Source: Anaerolineae bacterium (GTDB lineage: Bacteria > Chloroflexota > Anaerolineae > Caldilineales > Caldilineaceae). From it: DNA of 64,000 bases. Below, piece after piece: positions 10,134-61,502 of this stretch. Each line of letters opens with the position of its first letter. Position 1 is the first letter of the stretch. Under the pieces are notes generated by a model. That model made no database searches, was not told the origin of the DNA, and saw only the letters and a program-made list of their open reading frames with translations. The stretch is taken from the NCBI GenBank assembly GCA_030432295.1, contig JAUIHI010000006.1:62001-126000 (forward strand). Direction: 5' to 3'. The translations under genes and the position numbers were made by a program.

Positions 10134-10180
10134 GAAATCCGTTTTTATCAGAGTTCATCAGCGTTTATCAGTGGCTCAAA
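10134..10180 (-). repeat. 47-nt dispersed repeat, copy A
   Basis: A 47-base sequence rich in 'atcag' words (core TTTATCAGTGGCTCAAA) that recurs at 47189-47235 with one mismatch. The copy ends 18 bases before the tsaE stop codon (10199 on the minus strand), exactly the distance seen for the second copy and the methyltransferase stop at 47254. A degenerate relative occurs inside a coding gene at about 60150-60190. Confidence 0.85.
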
Positions 10181-53578: not shown

Positions 53579-54139
53579 ATGCCGCCTGCTCCCTGGAAGA
53601 CCCGCTCCAGCAAACCCATCTACGAAAACAAATGGATGCGTCTGCGCGAGGATATCGCTGAGATGCCCGACGGGCGCACAACTGTCTACGGCGTTGTCAC
53701 CTTTGGCGAATGTGTGGGTGTGCTGCCCTTTGTGGACGAAAATCACGTGGCTCTGGTGCGCCAGTATCGCTACGTCTTCGGCGAAAATCAGCGCTGGGAG
53801 ATGCCCACCGGCGGCGTGAAGTCGGGGGAGTCTCCCGAAGTCGCGGCCCTGCGCGAGCTGCGGGAGGAGGTAGGCTACACTGCCCAGCGTCTCGTCCCCG
53901 TCAGCACCTACTACACATCCAAAAGCATCTGCGACGAGACCGCCCATCTCTATCTGGGCTACGATCTGGCCCGTTCTGCCCTGCCCCCCGACGACACCGA
54001 ATTTTTCGAGGTGGCCGTCTTCCCCTTTGACGAAGTGCTGGAGATGGTCGTCCGCAGCGAAATCCGTGACGGGATGACCGTCATTGCTGTCCTCCACGCG
54101 GCCCGGCTGCGGACAGAGAAAGAGCGAGGATTGGGCTGA
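53579..54139 (+). CDS. Nudix hydrolase (ADP-ribose pyrophosphatase-like)
   Basis: A 186-residue Nudix protein with a complete Nudix box (GGVKSGESPEVAALRELREE followed by VGY), matching G-x5-E-x7-REUxEExGU. The N-terminal YENKWMRLREDIAEMPDG and TVYGVVTFGECVGVLPF are like ADP-ribose/NDP-sugar pyrophosphatases. The ATG at 53579 is taken because it fits the family length; no good ribosome binding site is visible and the frame stays open to 53507. Its last 20 codons are duplicated as a remnant at 55093-55158, after the next gene. Confidence 0.9.
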   Translation: MPPAPWKTRSSKPIYENKWMRLREDIAEMPDGRTTVYGVVTFGECVGVLPFVDENHVALVRQYRYVFGENQRWEMPTGGVKSGESPEVAALRELREEVGYTAQRLVPVSTYYTSKSICDETAHLYLGYDLARSALPPDDTEFFEVAVFPFDEVLEMVVRSEIRDGMTVIAVLHAARLRTEKERGLG

Positions 54140-54155: not shown

Positions 54156-55094
54156 ATGTTCGAAAAAGAGCTGACTATCGATTCCAACGGCAATAGACTA
54201 TCCGCCACCCTCTGTCTGCCCGCAGAGAAGGGGAAATTCCCGGCGCTCTTGTTCCTGCACGGCAGCGGTCCCCTGGACCGGGACGGGAATATGCCAGGTC
54301 AGCGACTCGACATCTTCAATGCGATTGCGCACTATCTGGCCGGGAAAGGTGTCGCCAGCCTGCGTTATGACAAACGGGGTTGTGGCAAGAGTTCGGGCGA
54401 TTACTATAGAGCCGGCCATTCCGACCTGGTGGACGATGCGGTCAACTGCTTGGATGCTTTGCGGCAATCGGATCAGTGTATATCTGACAGACTATTCGTG
54501 TTGGGGCACAGCGAAGGCACAGTGATTGCGCCCCAGGTGAGCCTCAAACGCCCGGCTGTTTCTGGGCTTGTTTTGCTTTGCCCCTTTGTCGATGATATGG
54601 AATCGATGCTTATCAAACAGGCCACGCGCCTTCAGGCAGAGTTCGATGAGCTGCGTGGGGTGAGCGGAATGGCCCGCAAGCTTCTCTCCAGGGTGATGGG
54701 AATGACCGTCGCAAACCAGAAAAAGCTGATCGGTAAGCTGAAATCGTCCGATCAGGTGATACTGGGAAGGGGGTCACGAAAAATAGCTGCCAAATCGCTG
54801 CGCGAACTTCTCAATTTAAACGCCCGCGGACTCTTTGCCCAGGTGACTTGCCCCGTTCTGCTGATTGGCGGGGAGAAGGACATTCAATGTGACCCCGCCG
54901 ATGTGAACGAAATCGCCGGGCTTTGCAAAGGTGTGGTGAGCGCGCAGGTCGTTCAGAATCTTACCCACGTTTTGCGCTTTGATGAGGGACAACCCTCCTT
55001 TCTCCGCACAGGCGATCTGATCAAAAAACCGATGGAACCGCTTGTTTTGGAGTTGATTGGGTCGTGGCTCAAAGGAGTGGTAGACAAAGTATAG
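54156..55094 (+). CDS. Alpha/beta hydrolase (dienelactone hydrolase/S9-like)
   Basis: A 312-residue alpha/beta hydrolase: oxyanion region LLFLHGSGPLDRDGN, nucleophile elbow VLGHSEGTVIAP, aspartate in LIGGEKDIQCDP and His in NLTHVLRFDEG. No signal peptide is seen. The N-terminus FEKELTIDSNGNRLSATL is typical of secondary-metabolite or peptide hydrolases of the YfhR/Aes kind. Its GC content is slightly lower than that of its neighbours, and it is bracketed by two copies of the Nudix gene's 3' end, which suggests it arrived by insertion or duplication. Confidence 0.88.
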   Translation: MFEKELTIDSNGNRLSATLCLPAEKGKFPALLFLHGSGPLDRDGNMPGQRLDIFNAIAHYLAGKGVASLRYDKRGCGKSSGDYYRAGHSDLVDDAVNCLDALRQSDQCISDRLFVLGHSEGTVIAPQVSLKRPAVSGLVLLCPFVDDMESMLIKQATRLQAEFDELRGVSGMARKLLSRVMGMTVANQKKLIGKLKSSDQVILGRGSRKIAAKSLRELLNLNARGLFAQVTCPVLLIGGEKDIQCDPADVNEIAGLCKGVVSAQVVQNLTHVLRFDEGQPSFLRTGDLIKKPMEPLVLELIGSWLKGVVDKV

Positions 55095-55285: not shown

Positions 55286-55963
55286 ATGCACACCGCCACC
55301 GATGTCGCCACCCCCGCCTGGGAAGAACGCCTGCGCAAAGTTACGATTGTAGTAGCTCGCCTGGGGCTGGCCTACCTCTTCTTTACCCAGCTTTTCTGGA
55401 AATTGCCCCCCACCTTTGGCTGCCCCAATGACTTCGCCTTTCCCGTAGCCGCCGAAGCGCCCACCTATTGGGAGGGTAACGGCAGCGGCGGTCTCTGCTA
55501 CTGGATGGGGCTGGAATCCATCTACGCGCCCAGCTACCGCCAGGTGCTGGTGACGGATATGCGGCCCGCGGGTCTGCCCAAAATCGGCTTCAACATTGCG
55601 CCTTTGGCCCAGGCCAACGCCCTGCTGCTGGACAATGTGATTATTCCGAATATCGCCTTCTTCGGCTGGCTGATCTGGCTGGCCGAATTCTGGATATTTG
55701 CGTCGATGCTTCTGGGCTTTCTTTCCCGCTTTGGCGCGCTGGTCTCGATTGGAATCACAGCCCAGCTCTGGGTGGGGCTGGCGAATGTCCCCCGGCCCTA
55801 TGAATGGGAGTGGGCCTACGGCGCGATTGTCCTGCTCTCGATTGTGCTGCTGGGACTTGCACCGGGACGGGTCTTTGGCCTGGATGTGGGGTTACGCCGC
55901 CGGCTGGCCTCCTCCGCGGCCCAGGGCAACCGTCTCTCCCAACTGCTGATGGCGCTCAGCTAA
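55286..55963 (+). CDS. DoxX-like membrane protein
   Basis: A 225-residue protein with about four membrane helices (VARLGLAYLFFTQLFWKLPP, FFGWLIWLAEFWIFASMLLG, ALVSIGITAQLWVGLA and IVLLSIVLLGLAPG) and a central loop of about 80 residues. The layout resembles DoxX/DoxD proteins, some of which are thiosulfate:quinone oxidoreductase subunits, but the family is broad and function here is open. The ATG at 55286 has CAGGAGCC upstream. Confidence 0.65.
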   Translation: MHTATDVATPAWEERLRKVTIVVARLGLAYLFFTQLFWKLPPTFGCPNDFAFPVAAEAPTYWEGNGSGGLCYWMGLESIYAPSYRQVLVTDMRPAGLPKIGFNIAPLAQANALLLDNVIIPNIAFFGWLIWLAEFWIFASMLLGFLSRFGALVSIGITAQLWVGLANVPRPYEWEWAYGAIVLLSIVLLGLAPGRVFGLDVGLRRRLASSAAQGNRLSQLLMALS

Positions 55964-56077: not shown

Positions 56078-56764
56078 ATGAACCATTCGATGGATAGCCG
56101 CTTTCTGGCGGTGGTGGCCAAGCGGCCCGCACCGGGCCAGACCAAAACCCGTCTCTGCCCGCCGTTGACCGAGGTAGAGGCCGCTGGGTTGTACGAGTGC
56201 TTCCTGGCCGATACGCTGGATGTGATGCGCCAAGTGGAAAGCGTCGAGCGGGCGATAATTTACCTGCCCGAAGAGGAGCGGGGCTACTTTCACCAACTGG
56301 CCCCGGACTTTGCCCTGTATCCCCAACGGGGAGACGATCTGGGCGCACGGCTGGACAATCTGCTCCGGGATGCCCTGGCCGCGGGCGCACGCTATGCGGT
56401 GGTGATGGACAGCGACAGCCCGACGCTGCCCCCGTCCTGTGTGGCTGACGCCTTCGTCCATTTGGAAGCCGGCGCGGATGTGGTCTTTGGCCCCTGCGAC
56501 GACGGCGGCTACTATCTGGTGGGTGTCGCCCGCCCCCAGCCCCGACTCCTGCGGGAGGTGGCAATGAGTACGCCGACGGTGCTGGAAGAGTCCCTGGCAA
56601 TTGCCGAGTCCCTGGGCCTGCGGGTGGCCCTGCTTCCCACCTGGTACGACGTGGACACGGGCGCTGAGTTGGAACGGTTGCAGGCCGAATTGACCCAACT
56701 GCCCGACACAACCGCCCGCCACACCCGGCGCTGGCTGGCCGAGAGAGCCGAGGCTGTCCGATGA
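56078..56764 (+). CDS. GT-A glycosyltransferase of the TIGR04282 type
   Basis: A 228-residue nucleotidyl/glycosyltransferase-fold protein: FLAVVAKRPAPGQTKTRLCPPL at the nucleotide-binding N-terminus (shared with MobA/CofC-like folds), VVMDSDSPTLPP (the D-x-D-like metal site), and FGPCDDGGYYLVGV. These match the TIGR04282 family, named for arsenosugar biosynthesis but present in many other contexts. Its stop overlaps the next gene's ATG (ATGA). The start may be 56078 or 56090. Confidence 0.85.
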   Translation: MNHSMDSRFLAVVAKRPAPGQTKTRLCPPLTEVEAAGLYECFLADTLDVMRQVESVERAIIYLPEEERGYFHQLAPDFALYPQRGDDLGARLDNLLRDALAAGARYAVVMDSDSPTLPPSCVADAFVHLEAGADVVFGPCDDGGYYLVGVARPQPRLLREVAMSTPTVLEESLAIAESLGLRVALLPTWYDVDTGAELERLQAELTQLPDTTARHTRRWLAERAEAVR

Positions 56765-57561
56765 GCAACCCCTGGACAAATCCCGACCGGCTGCCCGCGG
56801 ACGCGGTACAATCCCTGGCCCAATTTATCAACGCCCGGGCCGACATCCCCGACCAGTCCGCGGCCCACGCGGCGCTGGTGGATGCCCTGTCACCCCAACC
56901 CGGCGAGCGGCTGCTGGACTTCGGCTGTGGGACGGGTGTGATGGCCCGCCGCCTGGCTCCGCTGGTGGGCGAGAGCGGCGCGGTCGTTGGCGTGGACATC
57001 AGCGCCGCGATGCTGGACTTTGCCCGCACCTGTGGCGGCTCGGCCCAGCTTTCCTACCAGCAGAGCGATGGCGCGGTCATCCCCACCCCGGACGACAGTT
57101 TTGACGGCGGCGCAATGGCCCGCACGCTGCTGCACGTGGAAAAACCCCACGAAATTCTCGCCGAATTGCGCCGGGTGATACGTCCCAGTGGGCGGCTGGC
57201 GATGCTGGAATGTGACTGGGGTACACTGGCCGTGGATCACAGCGACCGGGCGCTGACCCGACGCATTCTGGACTGGCGCACGGATACAATCGACGGCAAC
57301 AATTGGATGGGCCGCCAGTTGGTGGCCCGCGCGCTGGCCGCTGGCTGGCAGATCGACGACATCAGCGTCCTCACGACGGTCGGGCGGGACGAGACGACCA
57401 CCCACTTTGGCAGCCTGCGCCGCTGCGGGGAACTGGCATTGCAGAACGGCGTCATCGAACAGTCTGAACACGACGCTTGGGTGGGCGAACTGGACAGCCG
57501 TCTGGCCGCGGGGCTGTTCTTTGCGTCTATCAATGAATACATTGTCGTCGTGCGAAGATAA
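56761..57561 (+). CDS. Class I SAM-dependent methyltransferase
   Basis: A 266-residue methyltransferase: motif I LLDFGCGTGVMARRL, acidic VVGVDISAAML, SFDGGAMARTLLHVEKP and RPSGRLAMLECDWGTL. The overall pattern is the UbiE/Methyltransf_11 group. The cysteines needed for arsenite methylation (ArsM) are not seen. Translation is coupled to the glycosyltransferase by a four-base overlap; a 19-bp hairpin follows before the radical SAM gene. Confidence 0.88.
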   Translation: MSNPWTNPDRLPADAVQSLAQFINARADIPDQSAAHAALVDALSPQPGERLLDFGCGTGVMARRLAPLVGESGAVVGVDISAAMLDFARTCGGSAQLSYQQSDGAVIPTPDDSFDGGAMARTLLHVEKPHEILAELRRVIRPSGRLAMLECDWGTLAVDHSDRALTRRILDWRTDTIDGNNWMGRQLVARALAAGWQIDDISVLTTVGRDETTTHFGSLRRCGELALQNGVIEQSEHDAWVGELDSRLAAGLFFASINEYIVVVRR

Positions 57562-57590
57562 GTTCGTAGAGCCAATTATCGAGTAATTAT

Positions 57591-57641
57591 GACGATGGAC
57601 GATAGACGAACGCATTCGTCCGTCGTCTATCGTCCATCGTC
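57591..57641 (+). repeat. 19-bp perfect hairpin upstream of the first radical SAM gene
   Basis: GACGATGGACGATAGACGA (57591-57609) and TCGTCTATCGTCCATCGTC (57623-57641) are exact reverse complements around 13 bases. It ends 19 bases before the ATG at 57661, just ahead of AAAGGAGAAA. Confidence 0.8.
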
Positions 57642-57660
57642 TGACTCAAAGGAGAAAACA

Positions 57661-58653
57661 ATGCCCTATTCCGTCGGCATCGGCCTGACCAACGCCTGTA
57701 ACTTGGCCTGCGCCCACTGCTATCGACCCACCGACCGCATCGACGCGGTGCCGTTGGCGCAGATCAAAACCATCTGCGAGAGTCTGCCTGTGGGCAGTAT
57801 GGGCATGGGCACAGGCGAAAATATCCTGCATCCCCAGTTCGAGGAGATCGTCCGCTATCTGCACGGGCGGGGGGTGAAATTGAGCATCGCCTCCAACGGC
57901 CACAGCCTGACCGCTATGAGCGACGAACTGCTGGCGATGTTCAACGATCTGGAAGTCTCCATCGACTATCCCAGCGCGGCCAAGCAGGACGGGCTGCGGG
58001 GACCGGGCAACTGGGACCTGGTCCATCGGGCCATCGAACGCTGTCACGACGCGGGCAAATCCATCTCCATTCTGGCCACGCTGATGACGACCAACTACGA
58101 CCAGATGGACGGAATGGTGGCACTGGCCCGCTCTGTGGGGGCCAACCTGCGGGTCAACGTATATCAGGCCGTGCGCACGGACCTCTACCGGCTGACCTAC
58201 GAACAGTTCTGGGAAGCCTATCAGCGCCTCTTCGCCGCCGGGAAGGTGGTCAGTTGCAGCGAGCCGATTGTGCGGGCCGCGATGGGTCTGCCCGATGTGG
58301 AGTCGCCCTGTGGCCGCAACAGCATCCGCTTCGATATGCGCGGGCGCATCATTCCCTGCGTCTACTGGCCGGTGGCTTCGCCCGACCCCTACACTGTGGC
58401 CGATCTGCCGGAGAAGGGCGAACGCATTTTGGAGCACGCCTACTTCCAGCAGGCGATTGCCACCCCAGCCCACGCCGCGGACTGTCCCTGTCAGGGAGGC
58501 TGCGCCAGCCGCCGCGCCTTGAACAACGAAATCGACGCCCACGACGAGTATTGCCCGTGGGTGCGGGGTGACGAGATGAAGCTGGCCTGGGAAGCCGCGC
58601 CCGCAATGGATTTGGTGCGCAGCCGCAATGTCTGTACGACGATTGTTGTGTGA
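57661..58653 (+). CDS. Radical SAM protein with SPASM-like C-terminus (1)
   Basis: A 330-residue radical SAM enzyme. The [4Fe-4S] motif C-x3-C-x2-C is CNLACAHC (Cys 13, 17, 20), followed by GMGTGENILHP and SIASNGHSL. The C-terminal part has a SPASM-like cysteine set: C-x10-G-x4-C in CGRNSIRFDMRGRIIPC, then CPCQGGCASRR and YCPWV, for auxiliary clusters. SPASM enzymes modify peptides, or in some cases other molecules; no precursor peptide is seen next to it. ATG 57661 has AAAGGAGAAA upstream; the longer frame from 57589 would run through the hairpin. Confidence 0.9.
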   Translation: MPYSVGIGLTNACNLACAHCYRPTDRIDAVPLAQIKTICESLPVGSMGMGTGENILHPQFEEIVRYLHGRGVKLSIASNGHSLTAMSDELLAMFNDLEVSIDYPSAAKQDGLRGPGNWDLVHRAIERCHDAGKSISILATLMTTNYDQMDGMVALARSVGANLRVNVYQAVRTDLYRLTYEQFWEAYQRLFAAGKVVSCSEPIVRAAMGLPDVESPCGRNSIRFDMRGRIIPCVYWPVASPDPYTVADLPEKGERILEHAYFQQAIATPAHAADCPCQGGCASRRALNNEIDAHDEYCPWVRGDEMKLAWEAAPAMDLVRSRNVCTTIVV

Positions 58654-58731
58654 GGCGTGCTGCGTGACGAGTAATGCGTGACTTATCCCGCAGCCTGCAG
58701 CACGTAGCATAACCGGAAAAAACGGAGCCAT

Positions 58732-59766
58732 ATGAACGTCATCCCACTCCAGGAACGAAGCGCCACGCCGCCTATGCCGGATCAGTTGTACATTGAGGTG
58801 ACGAACCGCTGCAACTCCTTCTGCATTTCGTGTCCCCTCACCTACGACCACTTTTTGCCCTTCGAGGCCAAGAATCATCTGTCCTGGGAGAACTTCCGGC
58901 GCATAGTAGATTCTGTGCCTCACATCGAGCGGGCGGTGTTGCACGGCATCGGCGAACCCCTGCTCAATCGGGAGTTGCCCCGTTTCGTGCGCCATTTGAA
59001 AGAGCGGGGCGCGCATGTTCTCTTCAACACCAACGGCGTGCTGCTGGACCAGAAGCGGGGGGACGCGCTGGTGGAGGCCGGGCTGGACGAACTGCGGGTT
59101 TCGGTGGATGCAGTGACGCCGGAACTCTATGCCAAACTGCGGGGGATCGATGCCCTGCCCCGCATCCTGGACAATCTGCGCGCCTTTGTCCAGCGCCACG
59201 GCGGACGGACCACGCCCAGGCTCTCTCTCTGGCTGGTGGGGATGCAGGAGAATATCCATCAACTCCGCGACTTCGTGCGATTGGGCGCTGAGTTGGGCGT
59301 GGCCGAGGTCTATTTGCAGCGGCTGGTCTACTTTGGCGGCGGCGAACATCTGGCCGAAGACACGACGATGACCGTCGAGCAATCCCTCTACGGCTCGCTG
59401 GAGGAATACCAGGCCGCGCTGATTGTGGAGTGTGAGGAACTGGCAGAATCGCTGGGCATGACCTTCCGGGCTTCCGGCGCGACGACGCCCCACGAGAGTG
59501 TGGCTGTGAAGGGGGATTCGCCCTGGCAGGGTTGTCTGCGCCCGTGGAAGCTGATGTATATCACCGCCAACGGCAATGCCCTGCCCTGCTGCATCGCCCC
59601 CTTTGCTGCTCCCGACTATCCGGGGATTGTGCTGGGCAATGTCTTTGAGAATCCCCTGGCCGATGTCTGGCACGGCGAACGCTATCAGGAACTGCGTACT
59701 GCGGTCTCCGGTGAGAGTCCCGCGCCCTGGCCCTGTCAACATTGCGGGGTGCGGTGGAGTTTGTGA
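58732..59766 (+). CDS. Radical SAM protein with SPASM domain (2)
   Basis: A 344-residue radical SAM/SPASM enzyme: CNSFCISC (Cys 27, 31, 34), VLHGIGEPLLN (the GGEP-like motif), LFNTNGVLL and VSVDAVTPE. The C-terminal SPASM part has GCLRPWKLMYITANGNALPC (C-x12-G-x4-C), an adjacent Cys, then PWPCQHCGV. It differs clearly from the first radical SAM protein in sequence. The ATG at 58732 follows ACGGAGCC. Its TGA overlaps the GTG of the next gene (GTGA), which is strong evidence of coupled expression with a membrane glycosyltransferase. Confidence 0.92.
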   Translation: MNVIPLQERSATPPMPDQLYIEVTNRCNSFCISCPLTYDHFLPFEAKNHLSWENFRRIVDSVPHIERAVLHGIGEPLLNRELPRFVRHLKERGAHVLFNTNGVLLDQKRGDALVEAGLDELRVSVDAVTPELYAKLRGIDALPRILDNLRAFVQRHGGRTTPRLSLWLVGMQENIHQLRDFVRLGAELGVAEVYLQRLVYFGGGEHLAEDTTMTVEQSLYGSLEEYQAALIVECEELAESLGMTFRASGATTPHESVAVKGDSPWQGCLRPWKLMYITANGNALPCCIAPFAAPDYPGIVLGNVFENPLADVWHGERYQELRTAVSGESPAPWPCQHCGVRWSL

Positions 59767-61502
59767 AACCCGCCCGGCTATCCCGTATTTCCCCTCTGGC
59801 CCGGCTGATCGGTCTGGGCCTGCTCTCCCTCCTCGCCTACAGCTGGCTGGCTTGGCGCTATCCCCTTGCTGAATCTCTCCAATCGCCGCGCGGCGGCTGG
59901 TATCCTCCCCAAGAAGCGGTCCTCTCCAATCTGTGGGTCCATCTGGCCGTCTATGGGCTTCTATTCGGCGCGTATGGGCTGGCAGTGAAGATTTTAACGC
60001 GAAGGCGCAGAGTCGCAGAGAATGAAAGGCAAAAGGCAAAAGTAGAAGGCAAAAGTGGCAACTCGTCTCTTCTGGGCGAGAAAGAAAATTCTCCCGCAGA
60101 GGCGCAGAGGCGCAAAGAGAAGCAGGGGAATCATTCCCATTCATCCGCAAATATCAGTGCCCATCAGTGTTCATCAGTGTTCATCAGTGGCTACTTTCCC
60201 CATATTTTGGTCGTCGTAACGGTCTGGCTGGCGGCCTCGTTTGTGCTGCTCTGGGCCACACCCAGCGGCGATTCCCACGACATCTACGATTACATCTACC
60301 GGGGGCGCTTGCAGGTGGAAGTAGGCGTCAGCCCCCTGGCGGTGACGCCCGCGGACGCGCCCCGGCTCTCCTACTATGCCTACACCGCCTGGAAGAAGAA
60401 TGTGGACACCTACGGCCCGCTCTGGGAGTACGCCAGCGGCGGTGTCGCGTGGGCGGTCGGTAGCTGGCTGCACGAGGTGGATGGCTTCCCATCGGGCAGG
60501 GCAGACTGTCCCCAGTCGCCAGCCACCTGTTCTGCCCTGATGGCCTGGGTGACGGGCTATCGGCTGTTGGCGATTTTGTTGACTGGGCTGGCGGGCTGGC
60601 TGATTTATGGGCTGGTACAGCGGGAGCATCCGGGCTGGGGGCTGCCTGGCCTGTTGGTCTGGCTGTGGAACCCGGCGGTGATCTTCTCCTCCGCGCTGGG
60701 TGGGCACAACGACGGGCTGATGGTTGTGCTGCTGCTGCTGGCTTTTGTCGCGGCGCAGCGCAAGCGCTGGGTGCTGACATTTATTTTTGTCGGTCTGGCC
60801 GCGCAGGTGAAGCTGACTGCGCTGATTTGGATGCCGGTGCTGGGCCTGTGGCTGTGGCGACAGATTGGCTTTCGTCGGGCGCTGCTGGCTGGGATCGGTG
60901 GAGCAGCGCTGCTGCTACCCCTTTCCTGGCTGCTCTATCAGCCCTTTGGCGGCTGGGAGACCGTGCCCCGGATGCTCAGCGAACGGGTTCTGTTTGCGGC
61001 TAACTCCCCTTCCCAGTTTGTCGACCGGCTGCTGCCTCTGCTCGGCTATCGACTGCCCAAAGAGTTTGTGCTTTTCTGGATTATTCGCGTGCCGTCCTAC
61101 GCGTTTGCGCTGCTGGGCGTAGGGATTCCGGCCTGGCTGCTCTGGCGCAAGCGGCTGGTGGGCCGGGGTATCAATTCTCAATTGTGGGCGCTGGCGCTGG
61201 TAGCGTCGCTGCTCTATTTAACTGTTGGTAGCTTCTGGTTTCAGCACTGGTATGTGGTGTGGGCTGTGGTGCCCGCGGCCCTGCTGCCCTGGAGCCGCTT
61301 CACCCGCTGGGTGCTGCCTTTCGTCTGTCTGGGGCCATTGGCCGCCAACGTTATCGCCGGGATCCTTTCCCAACTGCCAGTGATGATTATCTCTGTCATC
61401 GGCCTGACCGGGCTGGTGGTGGCGGTAATTTGGCTGCCGGGACTGATCGCGGGCGGTGTTGTTTGGTGGACAGGACGGAAAGATAATGAGATGATGGGAT
61501 GA
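59763..61502 (+). CDS. GT87/MptA-like membrane glycosyltransferase with an in-frame repeat insertion
   Basis: A 579-residue polytopic protein with about eleven helices. The loop PSGDSHDIYDYIYRGRLQV resembles the catalytic acidic loop of GT-C mannosyltransferases (polyprenol-phosphate-mannose dependent), and WNPAVIFSSALGGHNDGLM is a further family-like motif. Residues about 77-144, between the second helix and the next, are encoded by repeat-type DNA (59992-60192) and read as a hydrophilic, Lys/Glu/Ser-rich tail of the loop. The frame is kept throughout. The GTG 59763 overlaps the radical SAM stop. Together with the GT-A enzyme upstream it points to a glycolipid or glycan product. Confidence 0.78.
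   Translation: MKPARLSRISPLARLIGLGLLSLLAYSWLAWRYPLAESLQSPRGGWYPPQEAVLSNLWVHLAVYGLLFGAYGLAVKILTRRRRVAENERQKAKVEGKSGNSSLLGEKENSPAEAQRRKEKQGNHSHSSANISAHQCSSVFISGYFPHILVVVTVWLAASFVLLWATPSGDSHDIYDYIYRGRLQVEVGVSPLAVTPADAPRLSYYAYTAWKKNVDTYGPLWEYASGGVAWAVGSWLHEVDGFPSGRADCPQSPATCSALMAWVTGYRLLAILLTGLAGWLIYGLVQREHPGWGLPGLLVWLWNPAVIFSSALGGHNDGLMVVLLLLAFVAAQRKRWVLTFIFVGLAAQVKLTALIWMPVLGLWLWRQIGFRRALLAGIGGAALLLPLSWLLYQPFGGWETVPRMLSERVLFAANSPSQFVDRLLPLLGYRLPKEFVLFWIIRVPSYAFALLGVGIPAWLLWRKRLVGRGINSQLWALALVASLLYLTVGSFWFQHWYVVWAVVPAALLPWSRFTRWVLPFVCLGPLAANVIAGILSQLPVMIISVIGLTGLVVAVIWLPGLIAGGVVWWTGRKDNEMMG
59992..60192 (+). repeat. Cluster of dispersed repeats inserted in frame in a GT-C gene
   Basis: About 200 bases made of repeat words: gcgaaggcgcagagtcgcag, aaaggcaaaaggcaaaag, cccgcagaggcgcagaggcg, and tcagtgttcatcagtgttca. 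The last part resembles the 47-nt repeat at 10134 and 47189; 'ttctcccgcagag' also precedes copy B (47155-47167). No stop codon arises in the gene's frame, and the length keeps frame. Confidence 0.8.

Follow-up and report, generated by a model that had tools for sequence, protein, structure and literature searches.

Radical SAM enzymes are known to act on nucleotide sugars and antibiotic sugars. BtrN, the 2-deoxy-scyllo-inosamine dehydrogenase of butirosin biosynthesis, is a cyclitol dehydrogenase, and DesII is a TDP-sugar deaminase. GT-C enzymes generally draw their sugars from lipid-phosphate donors on the outer side of the membrane. To our knowledge, the classical dolichyl- and polyprenyl-phosphate sugar pathways contain no radical SAM enzymes, and we know of no radical SAM enzyme whose gene is fused to one for polyprenyl-phosphate sugar synthesis. 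Another sugar-acting radical SAM enzyme is BlsE, the cytosylglucuronate decarboxylase of the blasticidin S pathway (PMC3715490), and in mycofactocin biosynthesis one cluster holds both a radical SAM maturase and a glycosyltransferase (PMC3023750).

The locus described here joins a radical SAM enzyme to a glycosyltransferase, as the mycofactocin cluster does. It shares the pairing of a GT2 with a GT-C enzyme with the dolichyl- and polyprenyl-phosphate pathways (AglJ, PpgS plus GT-C), and a TIGR04282 member with the arsenosugar genes (ArsM, ArsS, TIGR04282, TIGR04283), although it lacks ArsS and its radical SAM families differ from theirs. No described system was found to match it, in agreement with an earlier note that had called the operon a candidate undescribed one, and our literature search for radical SAM enzymes with polyprenyl- or dolichol-phosphate glycosyltransferases, in which subscription journals were thinly covered, returned no relevant paper. 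We conclude that the cassette is real, conserved and uncharacterised; its enzyme families are known, and we did not find their combination described.

Gene content and extent of the cassette

The window, the whole 64,000-nucleotide stretch of DNA analysed here, comes from a bacterium of the Caldilineaceae (Chloroflexota) and belongs to one of the 61 contigs of a 6.7-Mb genome whose closest relatives are Caldilineaceae and Litorilinea MAGs (90-94% identity in the second radical SAM enzyme, rS2). Open reading frames and profile matches confirmed the five consecutive + strand genes that the earlier note had placed here, together with both four-base overlaps, at 56761-56764 between the first two genes and, as GTGA, at 59763-59766 between the last two. 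The first gene (56078-56764, +) encodes a CofC-like transferase of GT-A fold from the TIGR04282/DUF2064 family, with 169.1 bits against the curated model's cut-off of 134 bits and with 3cgx as the nearest solved structure; the TIGR04282 label names a CofC-like-fold family, and arsenic chemistry is not implied by the label itself. It is followed by a class I SAM methyltransferase of the UbiE/ArsM-like superfamily (56761-57561, +; PF08241, 75 bits), for which every NCBIfam score lay far under its cut-off and no equivalog was reached. The two radical SAM enzymes, rS1 (57661-58653, +) and rS2 (58732-59766, +), come next. The last gene (59763-61502, +), whose start is most likely the GTG at 59763, encodes a GT-C membrane glycosyltransferase of the GT87 type (PF09594, 33.2 bits, cut-off 25), and the same GT-C family comes after rS2 in L013-L016, L018 and L021-L023. 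The order rS1-rS2-GT-C is also present in a MAG that bears the name Litorilinea aerophila.

Within the GT-C gene, positions 59995-60190 hold an in-frame insert resembling simple repeats (GCAGAGGCGCAGAGGCGC and ATCAGTGTTCATCAGTG), a kind of sequence more usual between genes. The related ATCAGCGTTTATCAGTGG has two copies, at 10157 and 47212.

The evidence supports the earlier note in treating these five genes as one functional unit, but the unit begins further upstream than was noted there, because a DoxX-like gene and a NUDIX gene recur in the same cassettes. The first encodes a DoxX/DoxD-like membrane protein (55286-55963, +; a weak DoxD match that falls short of Pfam's cut-off) with homologues in cassette loci L013, L021-L023, L027, L070, L073, L075 and L077 and in the GT-A/GT2 loci L082-L086 and L089. 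The NUDIX hydrolase (53579-54139, +; PF00293, 72 bits) is probably an accessory member; its gene adjoins the DoxX-like or GT-A gene in L013, L021, L023 and L073 and sits between rS2 and rS1 in L027. Between the two lies an alpha/beta hydrolase gene (54156-55094), missing in the close relative L013 and probably an insertion.

In most relatives the cassette also includes a GT2 gene, which in the genome of the window lies on another contig (G000:C22:76219-76881). The encoded protein is 63% identical to the cassette GT2 of L023 and 70-74% identical to the GT2s of L024 and L026. The profiles that match it best, AglJ, dolichyl-phosphate hexose transferase and PpgS, all score below their cut-offs. 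No close GT2 was found in genome G185, where a different GT2 precedes the cassette.

The two radical SAM enzymes

Both rS1 and rS2 belong to the radical SAM superfamily, with PF04055 scores of 58.6 and 67.5 bits, respectively (cut-off 29.5), and a CX3CX2C motif. The earlier note had described both as SPASM-type. This holds for rS2, which matches PF13186 (57.6 bits) and carries the auxiliary-cluster cysteines C268, C286, C335 and C338. In rS1, by contrast, Pfam gave no PF13186 (SPASM) match, and the degenerate C-terminus is SPASM-like in part, with C241, C257, C299, C301, C305 and C322 invariant and their spacing shortened.

Among solved structures, BtrN was the best match of the rS2 profile (E 1.5e-19). 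The alignment covers the radical SAM core as well as the twitch domain, and C268-x17-C286 and C335-x2-C338 of rS2 fall in register with the BtrN cysteines, all four being auxiliary-cluster ligands. BtrN is nevertheless distant in sequence, and no fusion to a polyprenyl-phosphate GT2 accompanies it in the butirosin context. Given the BtrN-type domain plan and cluster ligands of rS2, its predicted activity is the two-electron oxidation of an alcohol on a sugar or cyclitol.

The rS1 gene most likely starts at the ATG at 57661 (330 aa), behind AAAGGAG, because relatives align only from there and the longer open reading frame's start is not conserved. Numbered from 57589, rS1 has 13 invariant cysteines: C37, C41 and C44 of the CX3CX2C motif, and those at 63, 152, 223, 241, 257, 299, 301, 305, 322 and 349. 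The protein ends in a conserved tail, N-[VY]-C-T-T-[IV]-V. In residues 344-354 (window about 58618-58650), the N, C, T, T and V are invariant in 11/11 relatives. MoaA has a C-terminal Gly-Gly tail, and by analogy the rS1 tail may extend into the active site.

Between the methyltransferase and rS1 genes lies a perfect 19-base inverted repeat (57591-57641), with arms 100% complementary and a 13-base spacer, which lies 19 bases before the rS1 start and occurs as a single copy in the genome. It has a predicted RNA fold of -40.5 kcal/mol (z -5.95), and a control or mRNA-processing element is a possible role for this hairpin.

In structural comparisons, the predicted rS1 model (pLDDT 78) gave BlsE as its top match (Z 21.4, 280 residues), tied with SuiB (21.1). 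BlsE is only 19% identical to rS1 and has another gene context, and the conserved cysteine-bearing C-terminal tail is rS1's own. For the predicted rS2 model (mean pLDDT 77), SuiB, BlsE and DesII ranked close together (Z 24-25.5), and the top Foldseek match was DesII, which is longer, aligned only from its residue 114, and matched rS2 less well in sequence than BtrN did. The sugar-acting enzymes BlsE and/or DesII thus rank high for both folds, and the RiPP enzymes SuiB and SkfB rank equally high. Because of this tie, fold alone does not choose between a sugar and a peptide substrate; gene context does. Neither rS1 nor rS2 reached any NCBIfam equivalog cut-off, and so profiles do not assign them to known pathways.

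Conservation, nesting and gene fusions

In a set of 298 class genomes, rS1 was found in 10 and rS2 in 21. Every rS1 genome also has rS2 (hypergeometric p=2.7e-13), and the pair always lies in a single locus alongside further genes of the cassette. GT2 is found in 17/21 rS2 genomes versus 36/298 overall (p=1.9e-14). Both p values assume independent genomes, an assumption that does not hold, and a stronger argument comes from the shuffled gene order. Gene content recurs across families of the class, and the order changes, for example to rS2-MT-rS1-GTA-GT2 in L025 and L026 and to rS2-NUDIX-rS1 in L027; such retention of content under rearrangement indicates functional linkage. Outside the phylum, a contig from a MAG labelled Rokubacteria (L019) holds a partial set (rS1-GT2-GT-C-rS2). 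The trees of rS1 and rS2 agree in part (r=0.79). A phylum-wide search with the rS1 alignment, in which few candidates were scored per genome, returned the window's own genome as the sole match in the genomes drawn.

Loci that have rS2 and not rS1 retain the NUDIX, DoxX-like, GT-C, TIGR04282 and GT2 genes (L073, and L075 with an interruption). GT2 also occurs in genomes without radical enzymes, where it adjoins TIGR04282, often with a DoxX-like or GT-C gene nearby (for example, L082-L088). A large GT-C-like membrane gene, of the GT87, DUF2079 or PMT_2 type, is present in most loci. From these layers it follows that the base of the cassette is TIGR04282, GT2, DoxX-like and GT-C. The cassette is nested, with rS2 as a first addition in some genomes and rS1 plus the methyltransferase as a second in fewer.

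Two single-gene fusions involve GT2. It forms one open frame with rS2 in L028 (P0002, 562 aa) and with TIGR04282 in L026 (P0001). These fusions tie the partner enzymes biochemically.

A candidate envelope-sugar pathway and its alternatives

We consider it probable that the cassette encodes a cell-envelope sugar pathway, in which radical chemistry would remodel a lipid-linked sugar before its methylation and its transfer by the GT-C enzyme to the outer side of the membrane. The polyprenyl-phosphate-type GT2, the GT-C gene and the fusions likewise support, as probable, the earlier suggestion of a lipid-linked sugar product. The gene content, its conservation, the co-occurrence, the fusions, the family folds and the cysteine patterns are observations, given above; the substrates, the stage of the radical steps, the acceptor and the product we infer as follows. 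The TIGR04282 protein would act on an activated sugar, transferring either a nucleotidyl or a glycosyl group, and the GT2, encoded elsewhere in this genome, would load the sugar onto polyprenyl phosphate. Next, rS2, and in this lineage rS1, would remodel the sugar through hydrogen abstraction; the rS2 step would most likely be a BtrN-like alcohol oxidation, and the rS1 step might be a second oxidation, an epimerisation, a deoxygenation or a decarboxylation. The methyltransferase would then cap the product, and the GT-C enzyme would move the sugar from its lipid carrier onto an acceptor, either protein or glycan, on the outer side of the membrane. The GT2 and GT-C families fit polyprenyl-phosphate-sugar-dependent glycosylation as a predicted activity, and with the CofC-like transferase alongside them this sequence of activation, loading, remodelling, methylation and transfer is the most economical reading. 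Against it stand the unlinked GT2 in this genome, the occurrence of GT2 where radical enzymes are absent, the failure to find a close GT2 in G185, the fold ties with RiPP enzymes and the merely partial agreement of the trees.

The substrate of rS1 and rS2 may be a nucleotide sugar, as for DesII, or a lipid-linked sugar, which the GT2-rS2 fusion mildly favours. Because the fusion points that way, we raise as a tentative possibility that polyprenyl-phosphate-linked sugars are the direct substrates of rS2, and perhaps of rS1, before export, which would yield envelope sugars of a new class. With the same fusion, a single protein suffices to test the substrate question directly.

The closest solved relatives, BtrN for rS2 and BlsE for the rS1 model, are antibiotic-pathway enzymes, and the cassette could accordingly be read as making a secreted small aminosugar or nucleoside-type metabolite, with rS1 and rS2 working as BtrN, BlsE and DesII do and the membrane glycosyltransferase loosely involved. 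This we regard as unlikely, since the genes that recur with the cassette include one of GT-C type but none for an aminotransferase, a dehydratase or resistance, and the fusion partner of rS2 is a polyprenyl-phosphate-type GT2. A RiPP pathway, in which both radical enzymes would act on a peptide, with glycosylation and methylation to follow as for mycofactocin, draws on SuiB and SkfB as fold neighbours and on the mycofactocin maturase MftC as the best NCBIfam score of rS1; that score, however, is 78.7 bits, far under the 265-bit cut-off. Consistent with the earlier note, which had seen no precursor peptide, a small-ORF comparison in 17 loci revealed only apparent shadow frames of the flanking conserved genes, and the gaps in L023, of about 30 bases or less, are too short for a precursor. 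With no conserved small ORF there is no evidence for a peptide product, and we judge this pathway very improbable.

The TIGR04282 score above cut-off and the weak ArsM-type scores of the methyltransferase recall arsenosugar biosynthesis, at which the earlier note had hinted from the family name. That hint did not survive: ArsS (TIGR04167) exceeded its cut-off in 0/10 cassette genomes, on which ground we rejected an arsenosugar product, and the GT2 reaches a score of just 56 with TIGR04283, whose cut-off is 182; we give this reading almost no credence. Chance proximity of two or more unrelated units would account for the variable gene order and for layers that are also found separately, yet it is highly improbable given the content retained despite shuffling, the strict nesting and the fusions.

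Returning to the envelope-sugar pathway, it is unsettled what the cell envelope of Chloroflexota consists of, with polysaccharide or protein suggested (PMC13319060), and a conserved sugar-modifying cassette therefore gives a handle on it. The archaellum of Chloroflexota is O-glycosylated (PMC12488501). We rejected a link between the cassette and archaellum glycosylation, as archaellin is present in 19/298 genomes, just two of which have rS2 (G154 and G118), and a search of the window's own genome found none.

Some loci carry other genes. L024, L026, L028 and L029 share, in fixed order, genes for cytochrome c/carboxypeptidase-regulatory-domain, ethylbenzene-dehydrogenase-type haem and DUF2079 membrane proteins. 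A PhnD-like protein and an ABC ATPase are encoded between rS1 and rS2 in L021 (L021:10528-12107), and in L075 a PhnD-like phosphonate-binding domain is fused to another radical SAM domain (L075:11062-12729).
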